Of a stretch of DNA of 64,000 bases, positions 3,958-42,296 are shown piece after piece. A program made the translations under genes and the position numbers. The notes below the pieces were generated by a model. It was not told the DNA's origin and made no database searches. It saw only the letters and a program-made list of their open reading frames with translations. Each line of letters begins with the position of its first letter. Position 1 is the first letter of the stretch. The stretch lies in contig JAJEKV010000004.1 in NCBI GenBank assembly GCA_021234155.1, forward strand, positions 13,606,716 through 13,670,715, read 5' to 3'. The stretch is from Isoetes taiwanensis. Its lineage: Eukaryota > Streptophyta > Lycopodiopsida > Isoetales > Isoetaceae.

Positions 3958-5275
3958 TGTGACGTTCCTGGTATTTATATGGTATACGTATATATAGTAT
4001 CATATGCCACCAGGATATAATTAGACCCTTAGGGGTCAATAGGGGATAACTTGGACTAACCTAAAAGAGTTTTCTTTAGCTATGCTAAAATATTAGGGAA
4101 TAATTTATCTAATTAGGCTAATTAATTAGTTAAAGGCAACCAATAAGGCAGTGCCACCTAGCCCAAATCGATTGGCCAAGGGGGACTTGCCAAGTTTGGA
4201 GGGCAAATTGGGGCCCTACCTCCAATTCTGCCCCAAATCGATTTGGGGAGAGGGGAGGAAGGAGGAGCCACCAGCTTATGTAACCAGACTTGAAGAATAG
4301 AAGCCTTTCGTGACAATGGCTCTAGCCAAGAGACCGGTTAGTCCCTAGATATATATAGTTTGTGCTTCAGCTAACACTTCCTTAGTTAGATGGAATGGTT
4401 AATTTCTCTCTTATGTGTTACTATGATGATGATGGATACCCTGATTGTGATTGTGTTCTCTCTTTCTGTTCCTCCTGTGTGTCTGGGGTTAAGGGGAGGA
4501 TAGAGACCTGAAGAAGTAGAGATGTCTCTAGCTAGGACCCTTAAAACCCAGTAATTAAGAGCCCACCTGGCTATGAATGCTATATCATGATTCAGCATCA
4601 GACAATAGCTACGATGGTGAAATGGAGATGGGGTCTTGGCTGGCATAGCTACAGGACCAGTGTGCTAGGCTTATAGTCGGTCCTCGCGTTGGGGCCGCGT
4701 ATGGGTCCGACACTTCCTAGGTCCCAGGAAACGTGCCTATATGGACGTACTGGGCTCGATGGGTGCGTCGAGGCGGCCCATGGATTTTGGGAGGTTCAAG
4801 TCGGGTACGAATGCGGGGGTCGCTAAGGAGGCACACATTCTCTAATACACCCAGGGATCCATCGTGGTCGGGACGCAGTCGCCTCTCTGACCTGCCTCAT
4901 CGAACCGGGGAGATGTAACCCGGAGTAGTCTCATAGGGTGAATCCATGGGATTGCGTCTCCGAAATTGAGCCCAGGGTAGAGCCGTACTTATGGTGTACT
5001 GCTTATGTTATCTTGTGCCTGTATTACTATTTAGTTGATGATGATGGATGTGCCACCCTTCGTGGTGGCATCTTATTTTGAGCTACGCTTCCGCTGTATA
5101 GGATTCCCATAGAGGACGTGGGACGAATGACACCTCCGTATTCCTCGCCCGGACACTTGGCCATTTCAAGTGGTCTGAGTTAGACGGCAGGCCCTCTCAT
5201 GGTGGTGTAGTCGCCACGGGAGGGAGATTCCCGTATTTATATGATGGGAGCATCGTATAGATTCTGGGAGCATCA
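3958..5275 (+). mobile_element. Chromovirus 3' LTR
   Basis: The LTR begins TGTGACGTTCC immediately after the PPT. I end it at the CA of GGGAGCATCA (5275), where LINE sequence begins on the other strand. Length is about 1.3 kb. A partial inverted copy occupies 41387-42296, and its last ~250 bp recur again at 42525-42772. No second full LTR or 5 bp TSD was found. The exact 3' end is uncertain because GGGAGCATC occurs twice near it. Confidence 0.65.
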
Positions 5276-6210
5276 AAGGATTTAGAGGCTTTAATATTAG
5301 AGTAGAAATCTTTCATTGAATTCATATTATAAACTCTAGGGAGACTGCCATAAAAAGCTTTAAAATCAGCACAGAATTTCTCATTATTAAGAATAGAACA
5401 ATTCAACTTAAAGGGGGTATTACCCTGCCTTTTAATGCTTAAAGCATGCGTAGTTTCAAGAAACTGCGGCTGATGGTCAGAGATTGAGGTGCTTTCATCA
5501 CTTGATACAAAGCTATTATCCTAGAAAGGAAGGTCAAAGTTGTTGATGTAAAATCTGTCTAAGGCACAAGAAACTCTAGAGTTCCCCTCTTGCTTATTTG
5601 ACCAGGAATATTTGGCAGTTGAGGATGGGATGTGAGCAAACAAATGAGAGTCCAGAAAATTGTCCCAGTTGGCCCTTTCAGTTGTAGACATGTTCAAGTT
5701 GTTGCTAGACTTTAGATCTCTGCTGGGAGTGTTGTTAAAGTCTCCAGCTAGAATCCAAGTTATAGGATTTTGATTATGAAGCCAGCTGCTTATCTGAGGC
5801 CAGAAAGATTCCCTCTCTTTGGAGATAATGGAAGCATAAACATTAATGACTCTAAAACACTCATTCTATCTGTGATGAATATGTAGCACAACTTCAACAG
5901 TTGTGCACTTTCTGCACATTGGTGTTACATTCTACGTAAGACATTTTGTTGCCAAATTGCTTTTATGTTACAGGTAATTTTGTTGTCCTTTAGACACAGA
6001 CATTGTTTCATATTTAAAGCTTCACCATATATGGTGGTTGCAAAATCAATTTGTGTAGTATCTCATCCTTACTTGATGAAGATATAGCTGGTGTGGTTTT
6101 GCAAGATATAGGCACTCCTGTTTTGCAAGGATGTGTTGGGTTCAAGTTCCTATTTGTTCTTTAAACATCAAATTTGAAGCTTCACCATCTATTGTGGTTA
6201 CAATATCAAT
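4540..6210 (+). repeat. Palindrome arm segment C (left)
   Basis: This segment (part of the chromovirus LTR, the LINE endonuclease fragment and about 350 bp of non-coding DNA) is present in reverse complement at 40428-42296. Small indels separate the copies; for example, the right copy keeps about 150 bp of LTR missing here around 4970. It is the outermost recognisable part of the large inverted duplication. The match stops at about 6205 on this side, exactly where the right arm runs into a LINE 5' truncation. Confidence 0.85.
5276..5866 (-). pseudogene. LINE endonuclease (APE/EEP) fragment
   Basis: Read on the minus strand, the peptide contains 'INVYAS', a 'WILAGDFNNTPS' type motif, a 'DRFYI' motif and a terminal 'SDHQPQF' motif. 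These are the ordered signatures of the AP-endonuclease-like domain at the N-terminus of LINE ORF2. Stops interrupt it, and it is cut off at the chromovirus LTR. The same fragment joined to the same LTR end is found inverted at 40777-41386 and partly again at 42297-42524, so the junction predates the duplications. Confidence 0.75.
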
Positions 6211-6340
6211 TCCTACGATATCTCATCCTTATTTGTCAAACATATAGGTAGTATAGTTTTGCAAGATATAGGCACTATGGTTTTGCAAGCATACATTGCG
6301 TTGAAGCCCCATATTCTAAAGTTGCTATTCATTACATGTT
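5985..6340 (+). repeat. Imperfect tandem duplication, about 180 bp x 2
   Basis: Two diverged copies share GAAGCTTCACCAT, a TATCTCATCCTTA block, and TTTTGCAAGATATAGGCACT in the same order (5985-6160 and 6165-6340). The inverted right arm carries the first unit and only part of the second. Confidence 0.75.
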
Positions 6341-25290: not shown

Positions 25291-25440
25291 TCTCCTATTC
25301 TGGAGTAAGTACATTGTGCTCCAGGCTCGTGCTCCTGTGGCATCTTTGTGTGCTTACACAGTTAGATGAGACATGTAAATTTTGTACTTTTTCTCTGATT
25401 AATAAACTTTTTGGCTTTCGTCCTTCAAAAAAAAAAAAAA

Positions 25441-26366
25441 ACAATTCAATTGATTTTTAACGCCATTATAGGTTGAGGATAGTTTCACTCTATTCCTCTC
25501 TCTCTTTGTACTTGGGTCCCATAGGCCAGTTGGTCTCCGTGGACGATAAAATCATATTCTATTCTATTCTATTCCTAAGGCACTTATTATTTTCTAACAT
25601 GGGTTCATTCATTTTTTATGTTTAATAAGGGGAATGTGATGGTCATTTACTTTATGGTGCTAATGTGTATTTTGTATTGGAATCATGCATGCATGCACGG
25701 AAGATACACAACCATTCCTCAAGCCTAGTTGTCTTTTACCTTATTGACTCATTTCACACCTTCATTCCTTTGATAAAAATATCTAGTTTTATGCTTTCAT
25801 TTCTTTGAAAGAAATATCCTATCCTATTTTAATTATTCCTCCTTTCAAGGGGGCATATAATGTAGGGTAAGACCTAATTAATATATTTGTTGCTATATAG
25901 AAGGTATGTAAAGTGGATTTTGAATCTACGACAAAGGATATAACTTGAAACCTATCTGCCAAAGAAGATTTCTAGGTTCATTTTACTAATCTATTTGCCA
26001 AGAAGATTTCTTGGTTTATTTTACTAATCTCTGCACATGATAGAAGTTCATTATAAGATAGATAAACTTCTAAGAGATGTTCCTTCTTAGTTCTTGGTCA
26101 ACTAGACTATAAGAACTAAGATAATTTGTCCAGAATGCAGAAGAGGGCTGAAGGGGCATATTGAAAATGACCTTGGCGATGTCCAGGAGCCCTGCCCTAC
26201 AACAAACGCCATTCATACAAATATAATGTTTCTTAGAATGCAATATCTTACCATGTCCATTTCTATATATTAACCAGGTATGTACATGATTACAATGTCG
26301 AACTAGTGCTTTGATTATTTAAGCTAACTTTATTAATTCAAGTCTCAGAAACATGTCACCTGAAAG
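25441..26366 (+). repeat. Palindrome arm segment A (left)
   Basis: The reverse complement of this segment is found at 34036-35600 once a hAT-like MITE (34214-34646) and a Tourist-like MITE (34760-35030) are removed. Identity is high, with only scattered differences by eye. No coding sequence was seen. It ends at the 8-bp TSD of the DNA transposon (26359-26366). Confidence 0.92.
25491..25575 (+). mobile_element. Short LINE 3'-end insertion with (ATTCT)n tail
   Basis: About 78 bp here are missing from the inverted right arm. The segment contains TTGGTCTCCGTGGACGATAA followed by repeated ATTCT, flanked by TATTCC on both sides. The same 3'-end sequence closes the minus-strand LINE at 37386-37445. 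This is therefore a severely 5'-truncated copy of that LINE family. Confidence 0.75.
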
Positions 26367-26928
26367 CCCGGGGGGTTCACGTATGTATTCCGTAGAATAC
26401 ATGTGCGTGGACGGAAGAGGGGTTTTTTCGAAAAAAAATAGTACGTATACATGCGGGCGCTCATACGTTTTGGCGCCCAGATGTATGCATTTTCCACGGT
26501 CCGGGGATGGATTTCTTGGAGCTGCTAAGGCGTAAGAGTATGTTTTAGGGGTTTGAATCCGAAGCGCACATGCCAGAAAAACGTTTTAGGATTTGGTGTT
26601 TCGGAGGTAATGTTTTGAAGTTTTTTCGTCCCTGCCACATAAAAATCTAGCACAGAGTTTAGTCATGAACGGATTAGGAAGTAGTTAGACGAGCAGCATA
26701 AACCATTGTTGATGCATTTGATTTTAAAGTCCATTTGCATTGTTGATGCTCTTTTTTTTTTGCAGGCCAAGCTTCCCCTTTTTCCATTTCGGCCTCCATT
26801 CTGTGAGATCCGTCTAAGTAAGGTCTGTTAAGATCAGTTTTGTGCATGCATGTTGGTAACGCTATACATTCACAAGCAGCTCTCTAATATTACTTTGCTG
26901 TTTCTTTGCTTGTGTCAGGCTGAAGAAA

Positions 26929-29900
26929 ATGGAAAGGACGATAGTTGTTAAGGTGAATGAAGGTTGTGGAATCGTGGCTGACCTTGGCCTCGTGATGGTG
27001 TCCCAAGAATGCACTTACGTGGATGTCCGCAATGAAATAAGACAGATCTGACTCTTGGAGGATGAGAAAGAATTTGTATTTCTTGGAGATAGGGAAGTGG
27101 CCTTCACGTCAAGGCAGGAGGTAAGGTTTAAGGTTTGTGGTGACGAGGTTACTATCAAGGTGGTTGGAGCCTGCACAAAAAAGGCAGAGGACTGTTGTTG
27201 AGAGCATTTCATCTCAAAATCTCCAATTTGAGATGGTAAACCAGACTGTCATAGCCGAGGAGCAGACCAATGAAGAGGTAAATCATGATGATGAACTTGT
27301 TCTCGTTGAAGATATCGCCTTTTTAGATGATGTATCAGATTTGCATTTTTCAAAGAATAGGTTGCTATCCAAGTTAGCAACAAAGTTTGATGTTGCCAAA
27401 TGGCAAGTTGCTTTGAGGAAGTTAAGTTCAAAGCTACAGCAAAAGAATCGAAAAGACAGGTTTGAATTGTGTTCTTATGATGCCCATGGTAAACCAGTAT
27501 TTGCTATTTGGTGTCTTGAATGTGAGAAACGTTATGGTAAAGGTGGAGATGATACCTTGTGTAACTTTGAACGGAGCCACTTGAAGTCCAAGGGTCATGC
27601 CGATAATTACGAGCGTAACCTCAAGTGTGACGAGAAAGCAGGTTGTGGAGAAGGAGGATCAGCCTTGCAATGTTGAGGAGGAGCTGGACATTTGCAAGGA
27701 GAATCAAACTCTAGTAGAAAGTACATTAGCCTCTGCCATTGCAAAGTTTCAAGAAGAAACTAGAATTTTTGATGTTGTGTTCAAGCTTTATGAGAGCAGC
27801 GTTGGTGGATATGCTAAACTTGATGACATTCGTGTTGTTTGTGCCATGTGTGAAAGTCTTCTCGAACTGTTTCCAAGAACTGGAAGTCTTCATGGCCACA
27901 TGAAAGATCATATTCTATCTAAGAGACACGTGCATGCTGTCATGAATACAGGTAAGGAGTCAAGTGACCAAGCAGCAAGAGGTGGCAGGCCGAAGAAATG
28001 GGCTGAAGCAGACCCGCAACAAGGAAAATTGCATTCTTTTTTTGCAAGAGGTAACCTCTATTTTATTTGTTAGAAGTAGTGTTCACGTTTTAGCTGCTAT
28101 AATGTCGAATAATCTCAGCTGATTCGGACTGATTTTGACATGAGCAGCAAACACTCCGTGCCCTCCAAGCTCGAGCAGCCAAGCTTCATCAAGTAACAGT
28201 TCACGTGAGTACTCTTAGTGGCTTCATAAGTGGTTTGTATTTTAAGTTTGTAGGGTATCTAGGGCTTCATTGTCGTATTTCGGTAACAGAAACGTCTTTG
28301 GCTCTACTATGCTGGGGCTTTTGGCAGAACAAATATAGGTATGGAGATAAAGTTAAGGATTTAAGACCCTTTCTGCATGAGCTGAAAGAAGGGACACATT
28401 GGTATTGTGAACCTGCATTGCAGCATACATTTGTAGTCGGGCAGGGTTTAATAGAGATTAGTGGCTCGTTTAGGCATAAGAAATGCAAGAGGGTCAGTCT
28501 TAAAGGTGAACCCTTTGAAAATTATCAATGTTCTTTATGTGCTGCTATTCCGAAAGAGAGGGATTTTTACATGAGAGTGCATAGACAGACCGATGACAAG
28601 GTGACAAGGGGATTTAGAACCACAAAATTATGTATTAGATCAGATTACTTGAATGCAATTGAGATGAAGAAAATGGCCAGGTCTGCAGTTCATGAGATAA
28701 GGAAGTTACATAAGAAATTAATGTTTTCCAAAATGAGAGTTACTGCATTGTCCATGAAAGAAAGGTCGCTAAGAGGGAGTCTGGAGGAGTCAATGAACAG
28801 GAAAGATGTCAGCAGATTCTGCCAGGACATAGTGGAGGCACATTGGCAAGGTAAATTTAGTGGAAAACCAGCTCTTTGGGATTTTCTAAGGGACATAGCT
28901 CAAAACATAATCAGACCAGGCCATAAAAGAAGATATAGGGAAACCACAAAGGCGTTGTTTGAAACAATTAAGATATGGCGAGGGAGAAGAATGCACAATT
29001 TTTCTCTCAATTTTTGTGTCCGAAAGTATGTCCACCACTATGCGCTCCATGAAAGCTTCTTTTTACAAGGTCGGTCTTAGGGAAGAAACATTCAAACATC
29101 TTGCTCAGGTCTACACTCTAACACATGCAACACCAAAGACTTGGATTTGGGGGTTCCAAACAATTGTGGCTGAGGATCTAGACCGTGATAAAAGCGGGCT
29201 GTACGTTGGATTCCCAGAGATGACTGCTTGCTCGGATTTTGTGGAAAGAAAGAAGGGCATGCTTGCAATGGCACATTTGAGGTGTTAGTTGGCTCCGATG
29301 AAGAGGGCTACAACATAATTATCAATGCCTTCGAGGAGAATGTCATTTCGCACTATGCAAGAGTTCTTATCGTGAATCCCTTGCATAGGAAGCTGCCCAG
29401 ACTCGTCCTTGCCATTATTCTGACATGTAACAGATTTGATCACCTTGAGGTTAGACGTCAGTGGCAGCAAATCCAAGACTTGTGGAATGTGCACTTGAGA
29501 ATGGTTGTGGGCCCTCTAATCGGCCACAGCTCGGATGGAGACTCGAGGAGAAGGGCGTGCATGTTTGCAGATTATACATCCAGGTCTGCACCAGACAGCA
29601 CATTCAAGGTTTCATGGGATGGTTGGCCACTAAGTGCCTCGAGAAATAAGGATGTTTATGGGCTTCATGACCAAGATTTCGTGCACAACGGTAAGAAGCT
29701 TGTTAATCCCATGGATAGTGCCTCTAGAAGGTTGTACTTAGGGAACGAGTTCGTGACTCTCAATGACATACACCATGTCTTTGAGTTATGCCAAGGGAAG
29801 CATGGGCTGCAACTTGGAGAGGTGAAGCGCCAGGATCGGCAAAACTGGAGGGTTGTGCAACGCCTTGCTTCTAGAAAGGTTCAGCAATGCTTGGACGAAC

Positions 29901-31550
29901 TAAGCAATGGTTCTGCAGGCCCACCAATGCGGAATTTGGGCACCAAAGTTTATCTGGAAGTCGTGGCATCATATATTGACATCTTCCTCTCACCTACTTT
30001 GGACTTGAGGGCTCGGATTAAAGCTGCTGCAACGGTATCCTTCTTCTTTAGGTGAGCTGGAATCCTGTTTGCTACTTTCAATTTGGTATGATCTTTAAAA
30101 CTTTAGGTGCATAACAGGCTTTGGAGGCTGTGGTTGACGAACTACAGCACGCATTCGTTGAGTAAGAACTTCATTAGTCGGGAAACCTTTATAGACATGC
30201 AATTGTCATGCCATTTTGCTATGCTGCTAATAAAGTATTTTAGTTCAGAATTTCGGCATTTAGAGTTGCCCTTACAGTGCACGGGATCAGACGTATGTGC
30301 GAACTTCTTCTCTAAAGTCGGTGGCATGGCGCGTAACGAAAGAGCCTATGACGGGGCAGACTTATTGGAGAGTGCCTCTGCTCTCAATCATATTTCCGAG
30401 TTTCAAGCAGCCACTACCCTCCTGTTTCCTGCAGCACATGCTAAGCAAGAACACATTTGGGAAGAGTTAGAAAAGAAGGTAGATACCAATGGGGATGTGC
30501 TCACCTGTAACCTTGCAGATTACAGTAGCGTGGATACGGATGACAAGATTATTGAGGCCTTAAAGGAAGGGCTTGCTGCTGCACAAGCATTGTGTACAAG
30601 CGTTGGCATTACAATTGAGGAGAGTGATGGCTGGTTTAGTGAGCCATGGAAGGTCGAAGATTGGTTTCATAGTAGTCGTGTGGTAGACCTGAGCTCTACC
30701 ACATTGGGAGATGAGACCGATGCCACGGAAGAGAATATGGAGATTGAAGGTGAAGATCCAAGGAACGAGGTAGTTAGTGAGGATGATGTGGCCAGGTCTG
30801 AATTACGACATGTGTTTGACGAAATGTTAGATGAATGTGAGAGGAGGAAGCCATCTCATGTTTCTTGGCATGTTGTTATGGAAGGTAAGAAAATCTTCAA
30901 GACAACTATAGTGAGTCATTTGAATGGGAATCCGTGGCTATCAAAGGACAGGTTGACGAGGGTAAAGACTATGGTATATTCTATTGAAGAAAGTAATGTT
31001 GATGCACAAACTCTGCTCGGCATTGGGACAGATTGTGCAGTGTACTTCGAAGAACCAGTAGAATCAGCGGTGGCACCACAAACCAGACAAGCTTCAGCGA
31101 GAAAAAGGAACAAATCTGCTGCAATTCATAAGGTTTGGTATCTTGGTAGGGTACTTAGCATGAGGAGGAAATCTGGCAGTGCATGGAGAGAGAGTAGGGA
31201 GCACGTGGACTTAGTTAAACGCCCGTCTTTTGAAGTTCAATTAAATCTGGCATATTACAGTAAACATTGCAGCAAGGACGGCAAGTCCACTTGGTTTACT
31301 TATGATCTGGCCGATAATCGACTTATAGACCTCGAGTCTATCATATCTCTTGCATCTTTAACATATGAACCTGCCAAAAACATTTACCATCTGCATGATA
31401 ATGACAGAGTACAGCTGAATAAGTTTGTCCGTGAACAGAATATTGGTAGGGTAATATTAAATTAGACAATTTTGCAGGTTGAATTCTGCTACTAACTGTC
31501 TCTTCTTTTTCATTTTTTTTGTAGGTGACAAGGGAAAGCAGAAGGTCTAG
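26929..31550 (+). pseudogene. Two-zinc-finger DDE transposase-like gene, five exons, decayed
   Basis: The ATG at 26929 opens MERTIVVKVNEG. A TGA at 27049-27051 and indels near 27170, 27630, 28995 and 29240 break the frame. Four GT-AG introns keep phase: 28051-28147, 28205-28289, 30035-30106, 31446-31524; the stop is at 31548-31550. Domains in order: short N-terminal module; zinc finger CLEC...H-x5-H (27512-27598); zinc finger CAMC...H-x5-H (27840-27929); AT-hook-like RGGRPKKW (27976-27999); 'RHKKCKR'/'CSLCAAIP' cysteine region (28470-28560); then a DDE-like core with 'VAEDLDRD' (29166), 'GHSSDGDSRRR' (29525), 'DRQNWRVVQRL' (29839) and 'TGSDVCANFFS' (30281). Motif order and spacing resemble P/THAP9 transposases, where the last motif is normally xDxxENxFS; here the Glu position is Ala. 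Family placement is from memory. Confidence 0.62.
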
Positions 31551-32331
31551 GGAGTGTATAAGGTTCAGGCAGATATTTGTCAAGTACTTTATCAATGATC
31601 ATTTATGATTAAAGCTACCATTTCAACAGTTTAAGTTTAAGAGCAGTTTTCTGCTTTGTATAAATCTCGTGCATGTTCTATTTGCTTTGCTTTACTTAAT
31701 GCATTCCATGTAGAAACTGTGGTCTTGTTTAAACTTTACTTTGAATGCAATAAACAGTGGCTACTGGTTGCTTGTGGAACTAGTTAGTTAGGTGTGCTTT
31801 AAGCCTTTCTGATTCCATTACTCGATGATTTATTTCTGCAGCATTTACAGAAGCATAATAAAATGCTTCCAAAACAGCATATGTTGTTACCCTACACTCT
31901 ACTTTTAAGGGCAGAATAGGTTACATTACATAAACATTACATAAAAGAACATTACATAAGAGAAGCATTACCGGTTAAGAACATTACATAAAAGAAACAT
32001 ATTAAGAGACAAACTAAAACACAAGAACCGCTTCATATTCATATTATAATAACATACTTTACAAAAAGGAAGGTTCACACCTTCGCATGGCAGTTTTCAT
32101 CCCTGTTTTCATGGCCATTTACAAAACAAAGCAGTCCTAAACAGATCAGATCAGGAGCTTTACAAAAAAAAAAACAGATCAGGAGCTTTACAAAACAAGT
32201 TAGGGACATTTCGTATGGCAAATAAAAAAACCTAAGCTATTATGGACGTCCTGGAGGCATAACCCGGGGCATAACTTAACGGATATCAGAATAACGAAGG
32301 CGGGAACGGAGGTCAGACTAACGGAGGCGCT
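31551..32331. other. Intergenic stretch between the two convergent transposon genes
   Basis: No ORF of interest. Short direct repeats occur: ACATTACATAA appears about five times in 31920-32000, and CAGATCAGGAGCTTTACAAAA is repeated at about 32149 and 32173. AATAAA-type signals on the plus strand (around 31748 and 31857) could serve the transposase gene. Confidence 0.5.
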
Positions 32332-32630
32332 TCACCAACTGCCCGGAGGTGGCATCCTAAGCAGCACATACAGATTGTTCCCTCTTGCACGGATTTTCAT
32401 TTCCAAAAGCCGCTCATCTGCAGGAGTCACCCGATCAACCCACTGCTGAACTTTTTCAGTGATATAGCTCCATGATCTTGCATGTGCACCACTTCCATGC
32501 ACGAAAATTTCGCGACAACCTTCAGCTTAGTGCCCTTGGGCTCTTCCTCAGGCGCGGCCTCTTCCTTCGGTGGAGCAGAGCCCACGGATTCTTCAGTGGG
32601 CAGCCTGGCGGTGGTCTTAATCCGCGCCAT
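32332..32630 (-). pseudogene. Small transposon gene with histone-H3-like N-terminus
   Basis: On the minus strand an ATG at 32630, in plant-like context ACAATGGCG, opens MARIKTTARLPTEESVGSAP. The first nine residues resemble the H3 tail (MAR.K.TAR). An acidic Pro/Glu stretch follows. A frame change near 32510 then gives a second block ending 'QQWVDRVTPADERLLEMKIR' and 'NNLYVLLRMPPPGSW' before a stop at 32332-32334. No histone-fold residues were seen. The sequence upstream on this strand (32631-32735) is C/T-rich like a plant 5' leader. The role is unknown; an accessory transposon gene or a captured host fragment are both possible. Confidence 0.45.
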
Positions 32631-32959
32631 TGTCGGATGTGGGAGAGGAATAGGCGGATCGGGAGAAGGAGTATCGGATCGGGAGAAGGAGAGGAATAGG
32701 CGCTGGAGGGAATGAGAAGAGGTGAAGAGCTTCGATCGGGTTATGCCATTGGCGGCAGCTGCATGGCGAAGTTCACCATAATGACGTCCTTAAAAGACGT
32801 GCCCGAAAATAAAATCATGAACAATAATTAATTTAAAGTCATTATTCAATAATCAATAATGAATTTCGTTATGATGTCATCCTAAAATTGATTTAATTAC
32901 AATATATAAAATTCCAGGCGTATTTCTTTTTCTTATTTTTTGGAGTGACCATTGAACTC

Positions 32960-33242
32960 AAATGGCGCCAGGAAGAACCCTAAATACTGACTGGATGCAA
33001 CATTTGCGGACTGGATGTAAAAATATGGTAGAGGGTAGGATACATGAATGAAAAATGGACGTAAAAATAAGGTTGAGGGTAGGGCAAGAAGTGCTTAGAC
33101 TGGGTGTAAAAGTATGGAATCGGGTATGATTCTTCGACAGTATGGGACCGTATACATAGGGGTTTCTATGGAGGGTCAGCTGTATACAGAGGGGTTTCTC
33201 CTGACTTGATGCACGCACATGCCATATGCCCCTTATATAGAG
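32960..33242. repeat. Subterminal irregular repeats of the DNA transposon
   Basis: Variants of GACTGGATGTAAAAATATGG and GAGGGTAGG recur three to four times between 32985 and 33110, and AGGGGTTTCT twice between 33155 and 33200. Subterminal repeats are common transposase-binding regions; their role here is inferred. Confidence 0.5.
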
Positions 33243-33256
33243 GTGAACCCCCCGGG

Positions 33257-33363
33257 CCTGAAAGAATGTCATTAACTTTGATCCTCAAATTTTTTTGGTT
33301 TACCAACTACGTTGCCTTCGATCGATAAATGTTAATAGAATTTGCTCCTAGCATTCGCACAAT
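33257..33363 (+). repeat. Innermost palindrome arm (left)
   Basis: CCTGAAAGAATGTCATTAAC onward to TAGCATTCGCACAAT is the reverse complement of 33947-34043, apart from an 11-bp extra piece (around 33320-33331) on this side. Confidence 0.92.
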
Positions 33364-33946: not shown

Positions 33947-34043
33947 ATTGTGCGAATGCTAGGAGCAAATTCTATTAACCGAAGGCAACGTAGTTGGTAA
34001 ACCAAAAAAATTTGAGGATCAAAGTTAATGACATTCTTTCAGG
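33947..34043 (-). repeat. Innermost palindrome arm (right)
   Basis: Mirror partner of 33257-33363. It ends in CTTTCAGG (34036-34043), the unoccupied version of the DNA-transposon target. Confidence 0.92.
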
Positions 34044-34205
34044 TGACATGTTTCTGAGACTTGAATTAATAAAGTTAGCTTAAATAATCAAAGCACTAGT
34101 TGGACATTGTAATCATGTACATACCTGGTTAATATATAGAAATGGACATGGTAAGATATTGCATTCTAAGAAACATTATATTTGTATGAATGGCGTTTGT
34201 TGTAG

Positions 34206-34654
34206 GGGGCAGGCAGTGTGGGAAATTCAACTTATTTATTGTATTTCTTATGACACGCCTTTTAAAATTGAATGTGTCAATTGACACACTTCCAATTTTT
34301 TTGTGTCTCATTTGACGTGTTGTGAACACCATTGACACAGATAAGTTATATAAATATATGGAAAATGAAAAATTCTATTGAATATTAATTCTTCTTGCAT
34401 TATTAAGTATACATATACATTAAGCCTTGTACAGACAACACACTTAATATTTGGGGCTCTAATTTTTTTTGACACACTTAATATTCTTAAGTGTGTCAAA
34501 TGACACATTTAAAAATTTTTAAAGTCTCTTTTGACGCATTTTATCAAACTATAAATTCTCTTTTGACACATTTTCTCTACGGAAGATGTCTCTTTGACAC
34601 ATTTTTTTGCTTTTGACACCCTCTGGGGTGTCAAATTCCCACACTGGGGGCAGG
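34206..34654. mobile_element. hAT-like MITE (34214-34646) with 8-bp TSD
   Basis: A 433-bp unit starts CAGTGTGGGAAATTC and ends with the inverse of CAGTGTGGGAATTTGACAC. It is flanked by GGGGCAGG at 34206-34213 and 34647-34654. The inverted left palindrome arm lacks it. A CAGTG start with an 8-bp TSD suits hAT. The interior holds about a dozen TGACAC/GTGTCA motifs in both orientations. There is no coding capacity. Confidence 0.85.
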
Positions 34655-34755
34655 GCTCCTGGACATCGCCAAGGTCATTTTCAATATGCCCCTTCAGCCC
34701 TCTTCTGCATTCTGGACAAATTATCTTAGTTCTTATAGTCTAGTTGACCAAGAAC

Positions 34756-35034
34756 TAAGGGGTGTAAATATGGTAATGCTACCCAAAAAGCACCATCCGG
34801 ACAAGTGCTTTAGGTGCTTTGCTTGAAGACATTTCTCTTCAACGACCTTAGAGTTGTTACTTAAAAAACAATATATATGATGTAGGAAGGCAAGGAGCGA
34901 TGATATAGATCTTGTGGAGGAGCGTACAAATTGTGGAGGTCAAGTTATGACACATTTTTTCTTAGTCATAGGTGCTTTAGGTGCTATGTGCTTTCGCGCT
35001 TTTTTGGGTAGCATTACCATATTTACACCCTAAG
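34756..35034. mobile_element. Tourist-like MITE (34760-35030)
   Basis: A 271-bp unit has terminal inverted repeats of about 30 bp that are perfect by eye, starting GGGTGTAAATATGGTAATGC. It is flanked by TAAG (or TAA) on both sides, and the inverted left arm lacks it. A TAA target and GGG-starting TIR fit PIF/Harbinger-derived Tourist MITEs. There is no ORF. Confidence 0.88.
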
Positions 35035-35691
35035 AAGAAACATCTCTTAGAAGTTTACCTATCTTATAATGAACTTCTATCATGTGCAGAGATTAGTAAA
35101 ATGAACCAAGAAATCTTCTTGGCAAATAGATTAGTAAAATGAACCTAGAAATCTCCTTTGGCAGATAGGTTTCAAGTTATATCCTTTGTCGTAGATTCAA
35201 AATCCACTTTACATATCTTCTATATAGCAGCAAATATATTAATTAGGTCCTACCCTACATTATATGCCCCCTTGAAAGGAGGAATAATTAAAATAGGATA
35301 GGATATTTCTTTCAAAGAAATGAAAGCATAAAACTAGATATTTTTATCAAAGGAATGAAGGTGTGAAATGAGTCAATCAGATAAAAGACAACTAGGCTTG
35401 AGGAATGGTTGTGTATCTTCCGTGCATGCATGCATGATCCCAATACAAAATACACACCAACACCATAAAGTAAATGACCATCACATTCCCCTTATTAAAC
35501 ATAAAAAATGAATGAATCCATGTTAGAAAATAATAAGTGCCTTAGGAATAGAGTGAAACTATCCTCAACCTATAATGGCGTTAAAAATCAATTGAATTGT
35601 AGTTATGGTTTTCAATGCTTTACTGTTAGTCATAAGGATTTTAGTTGCGAAGAATTTAAAATCATGTTTATGCTATTCCCACACGTGTCAT

Positions 35692-40427: not shown

Positions 40428-40776
40428 GGAATTGATATTGTAACCACAATAGATGGCGAAGCTTCAAATTTGATGTTTAAAGAACAAATAGGAACTTGAA
40501 CCCAACATATCCTTGCAAAACAGGAGTGCCTATATCTTGCAAAACCACACCAGCTATATCTAGGATGAGGTACTACACAAATCGATTTTGCAACCACCAT
40601 ATATGGTGAAGCTTTAAATATGAAACAATGTTTGTGCCTAAAGGACAACAAAATTACCTGTAACATAAAAGTAGTTTGGCAATAAAATGTCTTATGTAGA
40701 ATGTCTTGTAAGCTCTAACACCAATGTGCAGAGAGTGCACAACTGTTGAAGTTGTGCTACATATTCATCACAGATA

Positions 40777-41386
40777 GAATGAGTGTTTTAGGGTCATTAA
40801 TGTTTATGCTTCCATTATCTCCAAAGAGAGGGAATCTTTCTGGCCTCAGATAAGCAGCTGGCTTCATAATCAAAATCCTATAACTTGGATTCTAGCTAAA
40901 GACTTTAACAACACTCCCAGCAGAGATCTAAAGTCTAGCAACAACTTGAACATGTCTACAACTGAAAGGGCCAACTGGGACAATTTTCTGGACTCTCATT
41001 TGTTTGCTCACATCCCATCCTCAACTGCCAAATATTCCTGGTCAAATAAGCAAGAGGGAAACTCTAGAGTTTTTTGTGCCTTAGACAGATTTTACATCAA
41101 CAACTTTGACCTTCCTTTCTAGGATAATAGCTTTGTATCAAGTGATGAAAGCACATCAATCTCTGACCATCAGCCACAGTTTCTTGAAACTACGCATGCT
41201 TTAAGCATTAAAAGGCAGGGTAATACCCCCTTTAAGTTGCATTGTTCTATTCTTAATAATGAGAAATTCTGTGCTGATTTTAAAGCTTTTTATGGCAGTC
41301 TCCCTAGAGTTTATAATATGAATTCAATAAAAGATTTCTACTCTAATATTAAAGCCTCTAAATCCTTTGATGCTCCCAGAATCTAT
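40777..41386 (+). pseudogene. LINE endonuclease fragment (second copy)
   Basis: Plus-strand copy of the fragment at 5276-5866. It keeps 'VINVYASIISKERESFWPQ', 'DRFYINNFDLPF', 'SISDHQPQFLETTH' and 'NSNIKASKSFDA'-type order, with stops. One apparent difference from the left copy is a Lys codon replacing Gly in the 'GDFN' position (ctaaagac). It ends where the LTR begins on the opposite strand. Confidence 0.72.
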
Positions 41387-42296
41387 ACGATGCTCCCATC
41401 ATATAAATACGGGAATCTCCCTCCCGTGGCGACTACACCACCATGAGAGGGCCCTCCGTCTAACTCGGACCACTTGGGATGGTCAAGTGTCCGGGAGAGG
41501 AACACGGAGGTGTCATTCGTCCCACGTCCTCTATGGGAATCCTATACAGCAGAAGCGTAGCTCAAAATAAGATGCCACCACGAAGGGTGGCCCATCCATC
41601 ATCATCAACTAAATAGTAATACAGGCACAAGATAACATAAGCAGTACACCATAAGTACGGCTCTACCCTGGGCTCAAACTCCATGGAGGCGACTGACGGT
41701 CAGGGCATCAAGATATCAATAGATAGAAGTATAAAATGGTGTTGGCTGGCATAGAACAATGACTAGGGTAGTCCACTCCATCCGCCCCTCGTGTGCACAC
41801 TTTGCAGATAGGCTGAAACATGCTATGGCGTGATTGTAGCCTTTCGGAGATGCAATCCCATGGATTCACCCTATGAGACTACTCCGGGTTACATCTCCCC
41901 GGTTCGATGAGGCAGGTCAGAGAGGCGTCCGCGTCCCCACCACAATGGATCCCTGGGTGTATTAGAGAATGTGTGCCTCCTTAGCGATCCCCGCATTCGT
42001 ACACGACTTGAACCCCCCAAAATCCATGGGCCGCCTCGGTGCACCCATCGAGCCCAGTATGTCCATATAGGCACGTTTCCTGCGACCTAGAAGGTGTCGG
42101 ACCCATACGCGGTCCCAATGCGAGGACCGCCTATAAGCCTAGCACACTGTAGGGGTCCTATAGCTATGCCAGGCAAGAACCCACCTCCGTTTCACCATCG
42201 TAGCTATTGTCTGATGTTGAATCACGATATAGCATTCATAGCCAGGTGGGCTCTTGTGCACAGGTCGCAATTACTGGGGTTTAAGGGTCCTAGCAC
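41387..42296 (-). mobile_element. Chromovirus LTR fragment, minus orientation
   Basis: Reverse complement of about 4540-5275, preserving the GATGGGAGCATC end and the AGTTGATGATGATGGATG block. It includes about 150 bp around 41685-41850 that the left LTR lacks, so this copy preserves an older LTR sequence. Confidence 0.75.

Follow-up and report, generated by a model that had tools for sequence, protein, structure and literature searches.

P-type transposases are described by the signature string D-D-[C/D](2)H-E (PMC8230255, section 3.4), and distant P homologues are reported from amoebozoans and chromalveolates (PMC3985635), so that P-type enzymes extend beyond animals. Some DNA transposons also code for a companion protein: VANC of the Arabidopsis VANDAL elements is a transposon-coded anti-silencing protein in which tandem peptide motifs are frequent in the variable part (PMC5735166), and fungal DNA transposons, Kyakuja-Dileera-Zisupton and others, carry a TET/JBP dioxygenase gene (PMC12730594). 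Here we analyse a transposon of the lycophyte Isoetes taiwanensis that bears on both subjects. It lies in the window, by which we mean the whole stretch of 64,000 nucleotides that was analysed (assembly GCA_021234155.1, contig JAJEKV010000004.1, positions 13,606,716 to 13,670,715, forward strand). With a probability of roughly 85%, we regard it as a decayed copy of an autonomous cut-and-paste DNA transposon with two convergent genes, one for a transposase and one, antisense at the 3' end, for a small protein (second open reading frame, ORF2), and we leave its superfamily unplaced. The second gene is new here; a preliminary description made from the letters of the window mentioned neither ORF2 nor the decay of the window copy.

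Element ends and copies across the genome

The preliminary description had claimed 14-bp inverted ends, a 10-bp inner inverted pair, a perfect CCTGAAAG duplication and an empty site in a mirror arm at 34036-34043, and all of these were confirmed (Table 1). The end sequence CCCGGGGGGTTCAC had no further occurrence in the window when up to 2 mismatches were allowed. The inner pair, the subterminal motif CATGTGCGTG, is likely to be a binding site of the transposase. An older inverted repeat (25429-26366 plus 33257-33363, paired with 33947-35612) surrounds the element, which sits within one of its arms; the arms are 93-100% alike across several blocks.

To follow the family, the assembly holding the window (1,658,258,908 bases, 1110 contigs) was searched with a 342-bp left-end query comprising 8 bp of target site duplication (TSD) and, for the remainder, element sequence. 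From 465 candidates, 40 copies were scored; the match began at element base 1 in 27 of them and inside query bases 1-12 in 39. Ends and TSDs were read in rows 2-21 of these 40 copies (n=20), 17 of which had both ends, the other three (L017, L019 and L023) being left parts only. An exact 8-bp duplication flanked 13 of the 17 two-ended copies at the end points set by the script, and the 13 duplications were all different. Three more copies (L030, L033 and L034) gave an 8-bp match by eye after one end was moved by 1-3 bases, and L028, whose left end is damaged, gave none. The motif CATGTGCGTG stood at position 34 in all 17 left ends of these further copies and at position 36 in 15 of the 17 right ends.

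The same arrangement was found at L048, the one divergent relative whose ends were obtained. This element of 8824 bp is 62% identical to the window exon and 58% identical to L050 over the core, has the ends CCCGGGGGGTGCA, and is flanked on both sides by GAGCTAAG as an 8-bp duplication. The end bases CCCGGGGGG are common to the window family and this relative, so in this one case both the end sequence and the TSD length have been kept across a large divergence. The genome-wide check of copies that had been proposed at the outset thus turned up no other ends and no other TSD length among the copies examined. Taken together, the CCCGGGGGGTTCAC ends, the 8-bp TSDs, the empty site and the many copies support a cut-and-paste DNA transposon, and the earlier reading of the locus as such an element with a DDE-type transposase is supported by many copies, including L048.

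Some copies are altered inside. The short copies L021, L026, L033 and L035 (3.0-3.4 kb) combine the element ends with a common interior in which the longest frames reach 112-113 amino acids, and they are a non-autonomous subfamily. L018 has an internal deletion, and the window copy lacks about 33 nucleotides (window 26813, element position 447) that are present in most copies holding that stretch.

The transposase: structure, conservation and placement

The transposase gene was first outlined with four phase-consistent introns. Three GT-AG introns in phase stand (28051-28147, 28205-28289 and 30052-30117), and the fourth, near 31446, proved unnecessary, as the frame continues to a stop at 31463-31465. 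A pattern search over 13 sequences recovered the second intron in 4 and the third in 8. The zinc-finger-like and AT-hook-like motifs of exon 1 are visible by eye, and exon 1 and the N-terminus gave no Pfam match above the cut-off. The roughly 80 residues ahead of the zinc fingers (26929-27183 in the window, and their counterparts in L020 and in the L048 element) are likewise without a Pfam match, the L048 outline being similar by eye.

An intact gene was not confirmed for the window copy. Here codon 27049-27051 is a stop, and the frame shifts near 27175, 27645, 29018 and 29195, so that exon 1 is interrupted where copy L020 has a single open frame of 421 amino acids. Its third catalytic position (30299-30301) reads A. 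The frame changes near 27645, 29018 and 29195 were considered as introns, and an unsystematic look by eye gave no GT-AG intron of ordinary length. Codon scores preferred the shifted frame across 29020-29195 (the best-scoring switch points lie wider, at 28973 and 29279), and relatives have one continuous frame through this region. Because of the missing introns, the codon scores and the relatives' single frame, the frame changes were taken as defects, or in part as errors of assembly. Both the stop and the loss of E are due to substitutions. The window copy thus looks decayed and, to all appearance, dead.

Relatives were collected with an exon query (29192-30052), which gave 138 matches from 867 candidates; 136 were scored, at 58-100% identity. 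We took 34 places from these matches for their open frames and their spread of identity, a sample that is not random, and the exon-3 core was open over at least 410 residues in 22 of them, the remainder having a broken or shorter core. A merged alignment of 36 rows, consisting of the 34 loci plus L016 and L025 and excluding the window copy, revealed complete conservation of the candidate catalytic residues: D1 (AEDET) in 33 of the 33 rows with letters there, D2 (SDGD) and D(2)H in 36 of 36 each, and E (CENFF or CEIFF) in 21 of the 21 with letters there. The DDE-like motifs described earlier therefore stand in the relatives, D, D, D(2)H and E in order, whereas the window copy has A for E. Selection on the core was assessed over 253 pairs of 23 open loci, with figures taken for the 25 closest pairs. 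The ratio of nonsynonymous to synonymous substitution rates (dN/dS) was 0.08-0.28 in the 15 of these pairs with dS >0.1 and 0.17-0.86 in the 10 closer ones, two of which lay near 0.86, as dead copies would give. The transposase core of the relatives is mostly under purifying selection. No relatives were found in viral contigs, phages or plasmids, one pattern search having matched 7 contigs that were left unexamined.

The transposase looks, from its motifs, like a member of the group marked by the signature of hAT, P and MuDR, most like P and placed in no described superfamily. The order D - D - D(2)H - E in the family matches the P string. The spacings are 119/47/186 in the family versus 73/36/192 in the P transposase, and the third motif is SDxCENFFS versus QDIVEHFFG. 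This agreement of signature, set against sequence tests that were not significant, is why the family is left unplaced and described as nearest to P by signature.

The family could be a true but diverged member of the P/THAP9 superfamily in which the THAP domain has been replaced by other zinc fingers, a reading that we hold to be plausible at somewhat less than even odds. The 8-bp TSD and the internal inverted repeats are as in P elements (PMC7776569), the signature is shared, the D(2)H-E spacing (186 versus 192) is close, DFVHNGKKLVN resembles DTPHLIKLVRN by eye, and the register of SDxCENFFS on QDIVEHFFG was picked by hhalign unaided. In addition, L048 gave a weak match, below the cut-off, to the P-type GTP-binding insertion domain (TNP-like_GBD) in the correct place, with E 0.047 (14.5 bits, cut-off 24.8), or 0.13 with a longer piece. 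When the genome was searched for the P-type domain PF21788, none of 4 candidates matched, but the control was equally silent, so this search carries no weight. However, 35 of the 36 exon-3 rows gave no GBD match, and two unrelated families scored better by chance on other pieces (E 0.0032 and 0.0039). When the window core (read through) was aligned with the P core by Smith-Waterman, 326, 317 and 197 of 1000 shuffles scored at least as high with three matrices; for hhalign and the family profile, 35 of 150 shuffles did so. The N-terminal frames, taken from the window copy, L020 and L048, showed neither THAP nor any other P family, and the D1-D2 spacing differs (119 versus 73). Hence the wording 'P-like or sister superfamily' of the preliminary description keeps its footing in the signature order, the D(2)H-E spacing and the third motif, and loses it in the shuffle tests, the THAP domain and the D1-D2 spacing; a sister position to P elements is possible on this comparison, and membership in P is unproven.

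An aberrant hAT element seems very improbable. hAT elements make 8-bp TSDs, the length found here, but they show a strong T2/A7 preference that these TSDs lack (T2 in 6 of 15, A7 in 7 of 15). hAT transposases have C(2)H where this family has D(2)H, and the family's D2-E spacing of 233 compares with about 324 in Hermes. The hAT dimerization domain and other hAT families are in Pfam-A, and the profile searches gave no hAT family match, though HMMER's filters discard most weak matches. What the family does share is the C/DxxH motif between the second D and E, which is common to hAT (PMC9587614).

The superfamily may also be catalogued already outside Pfam, for example as Novosib of Repbase or as an uncharacterised invertebrate family, and to this we give about the same weight as to P membership, a little short of an even chance. 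Certain uncharacterised invertebrate proteins presumably have similar GFCG, NPLH and SDGDSRRR motifs. Repbase counts 20 DDD/E-transposase superfamilies, Novosib included (PMC9587614), but the titles and abstract openings of the literature surveyed describe no such plant element.

A second, antisense gene with a histone-H3-like tail

ORF2 codes for a protein of 99-111 amino acids in which an H3-like tail is followed by a linker that varies and by a C-terminal part of about 65 amino acids that is conserved, and it is open in 9 of 12 full-length copies, being broken in the window copy, L016 and L020. No relative was found in Pfam or the PDB. Among eight open copies, 20 synonymous and 18 nonsynonymous variants were counted over 79:254 sites (p 1.2e-4), with a mean ratio of nonsynonymous to synonymous proportions (pN/pS) of 0.27 over 28 dependent pairs; ORF2 is under purifying selection. 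A protein search of the genome gave 151 matches from 857 candidates, of which 150 were scored, the listed ones at 47-99% identity, and by our own count about 128 of the 150 listed are free of stops.

Location ties ORF2 to the transposase. After four half-exon rows had been set aside, 134 of the 138 transposase places were matched against the 150 best ORF2 places listed. Of 44 transposase-ORF2 pairs within 10 kb, 43 had ORF2 antisense and downstream, 42 of these at a distance of 0.5-5 kb. The 43 pairs represent 42 distinct transposase places, since the window, with its split ORF2, was counted twice. The one same-strand pair was at a place that also has an antisense ORF2, and none lay upstream within 6 kb. 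In five antisense pairs the transposase identity was only 60-68%.

These results bear on the possibility that ORF2 is a functionless chance open frame on the non-coding strand. Its shortness (about 100 amino acids), the lack of a Pfam or PDB relative, its absence from the findings at L048 and the limitation of the selection test to open copies would all fit such a frame. The synonymous excess, the 151 matches that are mostly without a stop, the conserved antisense position and the fact that 4 of 4 divergent copies are open from M, though these were picked because their match begins at residue 1, argue against it, and we consider a chance frame highly unlikely.

The start of the protein, M-ARIKTTAR, agrees with ARTKQTAR of histone H3 in 6 of 8 residues, a score that shuffling the first 40 residues 200,000 times never produced; over ten residues (ARIKTTARLP), 6 agree, as in 14 of 200,000 shuffles. 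The likeness was spotted first and tested by shuffling afterwards. Four divergent ORF2 loci, selected because the match starts at residue 1, are all open, with a different linker, and begin with MARTKTTAKK (one) or MARTKTTAKR (three); ARTKTTAKKP agrees with H3 at 7 of 10 residues (1 of 200,000 shuffles) and ARTKTTAKRR at 6 of 10 (4 of 200,000). Many distant ORF2 matches align only from about residue 26-40, and the H3-like start is thus known from the copies that were read. Among the nine open near copies, A7 is replaced by S in three and A1 by S in one, and six residues after the tail are missing from one. In the divergent ORF2 of L073-L076, the H3-like start and the C-terminal part are kept while the AAPEEE units of the linker give way to a glycine- and serine-rich one. 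We also considered ORF2 as a captured H3 gene and rejected this, because the full H3 alignment score was equalled by 169 of 5000 shuffles and only the tail stands out.

One bold interpretation would make the family an undescribed superfamily whose antisense protein displays an H3-like tail (A-R-T/I-K-T-T-A) to the chromatin machinery of the plant, competes for readers or writers of H3 and so shields the element from silencing, as a histone-tail decoy. We regard this combined reading as unlikely. The titles and abstract openings of the literature surveyed report no transposon-coded H3-tail mimic, and one may exist elsewhere.

Assessment and comparison with known transposons

Several observations weigh against an autonomous two-gene element. 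No evidence was obtained for present movement. The Nanopore-based assembly (PMC8566536) may itself have introduced some of the frame breaks seen in the window copy. For the transposase there was no Pfam, NCBIfam or PDB sequence match above the cut-off, and searching PDB sequences with a profile turned up no hit, even with E up to 10 allowed. A structural and profile comparison with P/THAP9 had been suggested in the preliminary description, and it yielded one profile match, that to GBD below the cut-off; the AlphaFold models (mean predicted local distance difference test score 32 from a single sequence and 42 from 56 rows) were too poor for an RNase H fold, which in P/THAP9 enzymes carries its insertion domain between the fifth strand and the helix that follows, to be judged, and Foldseek with the 56-row model, itself poor, gave no match at E <0.001. 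Of the 134 transposase places, 92 had no paired ORF2, a figure of little weight, since scoring was limited to the best 150 ORF2 candidates. ORF2 is not universal, for none could be recognised in the L048 element (best E 0.18).

We nevertheless prefer the autonomous cut-and-paste transposon with two convergent genes, of which the window holds a decayed copy. The zinc fingers, or some other DNA-binding region of its transposase, would recognise the ends, the subterminal motif being the probable site; the enzyme would then excise the element with an RNase-H-type active site and insert it with an 8-bp stagger. The ORF2 protein would assist the element, most likely through an effect on chromatin or silencing, and may be an anti-silencing protein.

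Table 1. Features of the transposon and its insertion site, in window positions
Feature	Position	Strand	Remarks
Transposon	26367..33256	+	6890 bp; first and last bases common to other copies
Target site duplication, left, CCTGAAAG	26359..26366	.	
Target site duplication, right, CCTGAAAG	33257..33264	.	Perfect 8-bp match to the left one
Terminal inverted repeat, left, CCCGGGGGGTTCAC	26367..26380	+	Perfect, 14 bp
Terminal inverted repeat, right (CCCGGGGGGTTCAC inverted)	33243..33256	-	
Subterminal motif CATGTGCGTG, left	26400..26409	+	
Subterminal motif CATGTGCGTG, right, inverted	33212..33221	-	
Transposase exon 1	26929..28050	+	N-terminal part of about 80 amino acids, then two CxxC...H...H zinc-finger-like motifs and AT-hook-like RGGRPKK (by eye)
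Transposase exon 2	28148..28204	+	Phase-consistent GT-AG introns on either side
Transposase exon 3	28290..30051	+	D1 29175-29177 (shifted frame here), D2 GHSSDGD 29534-29536, D(2)H 29675-29686
Transposase exon 4	30118..31465	+	Third catalytic motif SDxCENFFS
ORF2	32335..32630	-	Antisense, about 100 amino acids, frame broken in window copy
Uninterrupted (empty) site, mirror arm of host inverted repeat	34036..34043	-	

Elsewhere in the window, another long inverted repeat pairs 4557-6306 with 40428-42255 in several blocks that are 82-99% alike, its arms being separated by 34-37 kb. Between 15275 and 24801 there are direct repeats about 7.97 kb apart, with two 300-bp stretches identical and a third of 100 bp 94% alike; the frames within are gag- and pol-like by eye, perhaps indicating a young long terminal repeat retrotransposon.

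If the placing near P is true, lycophytes harbour hundreds of copies of transposons with a P-like signature, a point of relevance to the age and spread of P-type transposons. The conserved antisense protein raises the testable question of whether transposons use histone-tail mimics against silencing, and the intact relatives and the conserved tail are material for direct tests. This H3-tailed protein is the part of the finding that most deserves a test.

Among known elements, the Drosophila P element and the zebrafish THAP9 element resemble the family in the 8-bp TSD, the terminal and internal inverted repeats, a zinc-binding-type N-terminus, the D-D-D(2)H-E order, the large insert between D2 and E and the near-equal D(2)H-E spacing. 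In the family, by contrast, no THAP domain was detected, D1 and D2 lie 46 residues further apart, sequence similarity is not significant, an antisense gene is added and the host is a plant; the terminal bases of P are other than the family's CCCGGGGGG. hAT elements are alike in the 8-bp TSD, the [C/D](2)H signature and the zinc fingers, whereas the family gave no match to a hAT domain, has D(2)H and a different spacing, and shows no hAT-like TSD preference. With respect to the companion gene, VANDAL elements, whose transposase is of the MULE type, are likewise plant DNA transposons that code for an extra protein beside the transposase. Among the literature surveyed, VANC comes closest as a known transposon-coded anti-silencing protein, although anti-silencing has been shown for VANC and would be only a deduction for ORF2, and the two are likened by description and not by sequence. 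The fungal transposons with a TET/JBP gene similarly carry a companion gene, one with a possible effect on silencing marks (PMC12730594); they differ in belonging to other transposase families, where this family has no Pfam match, and in coding for an enzyme rather than a small tailed protein.

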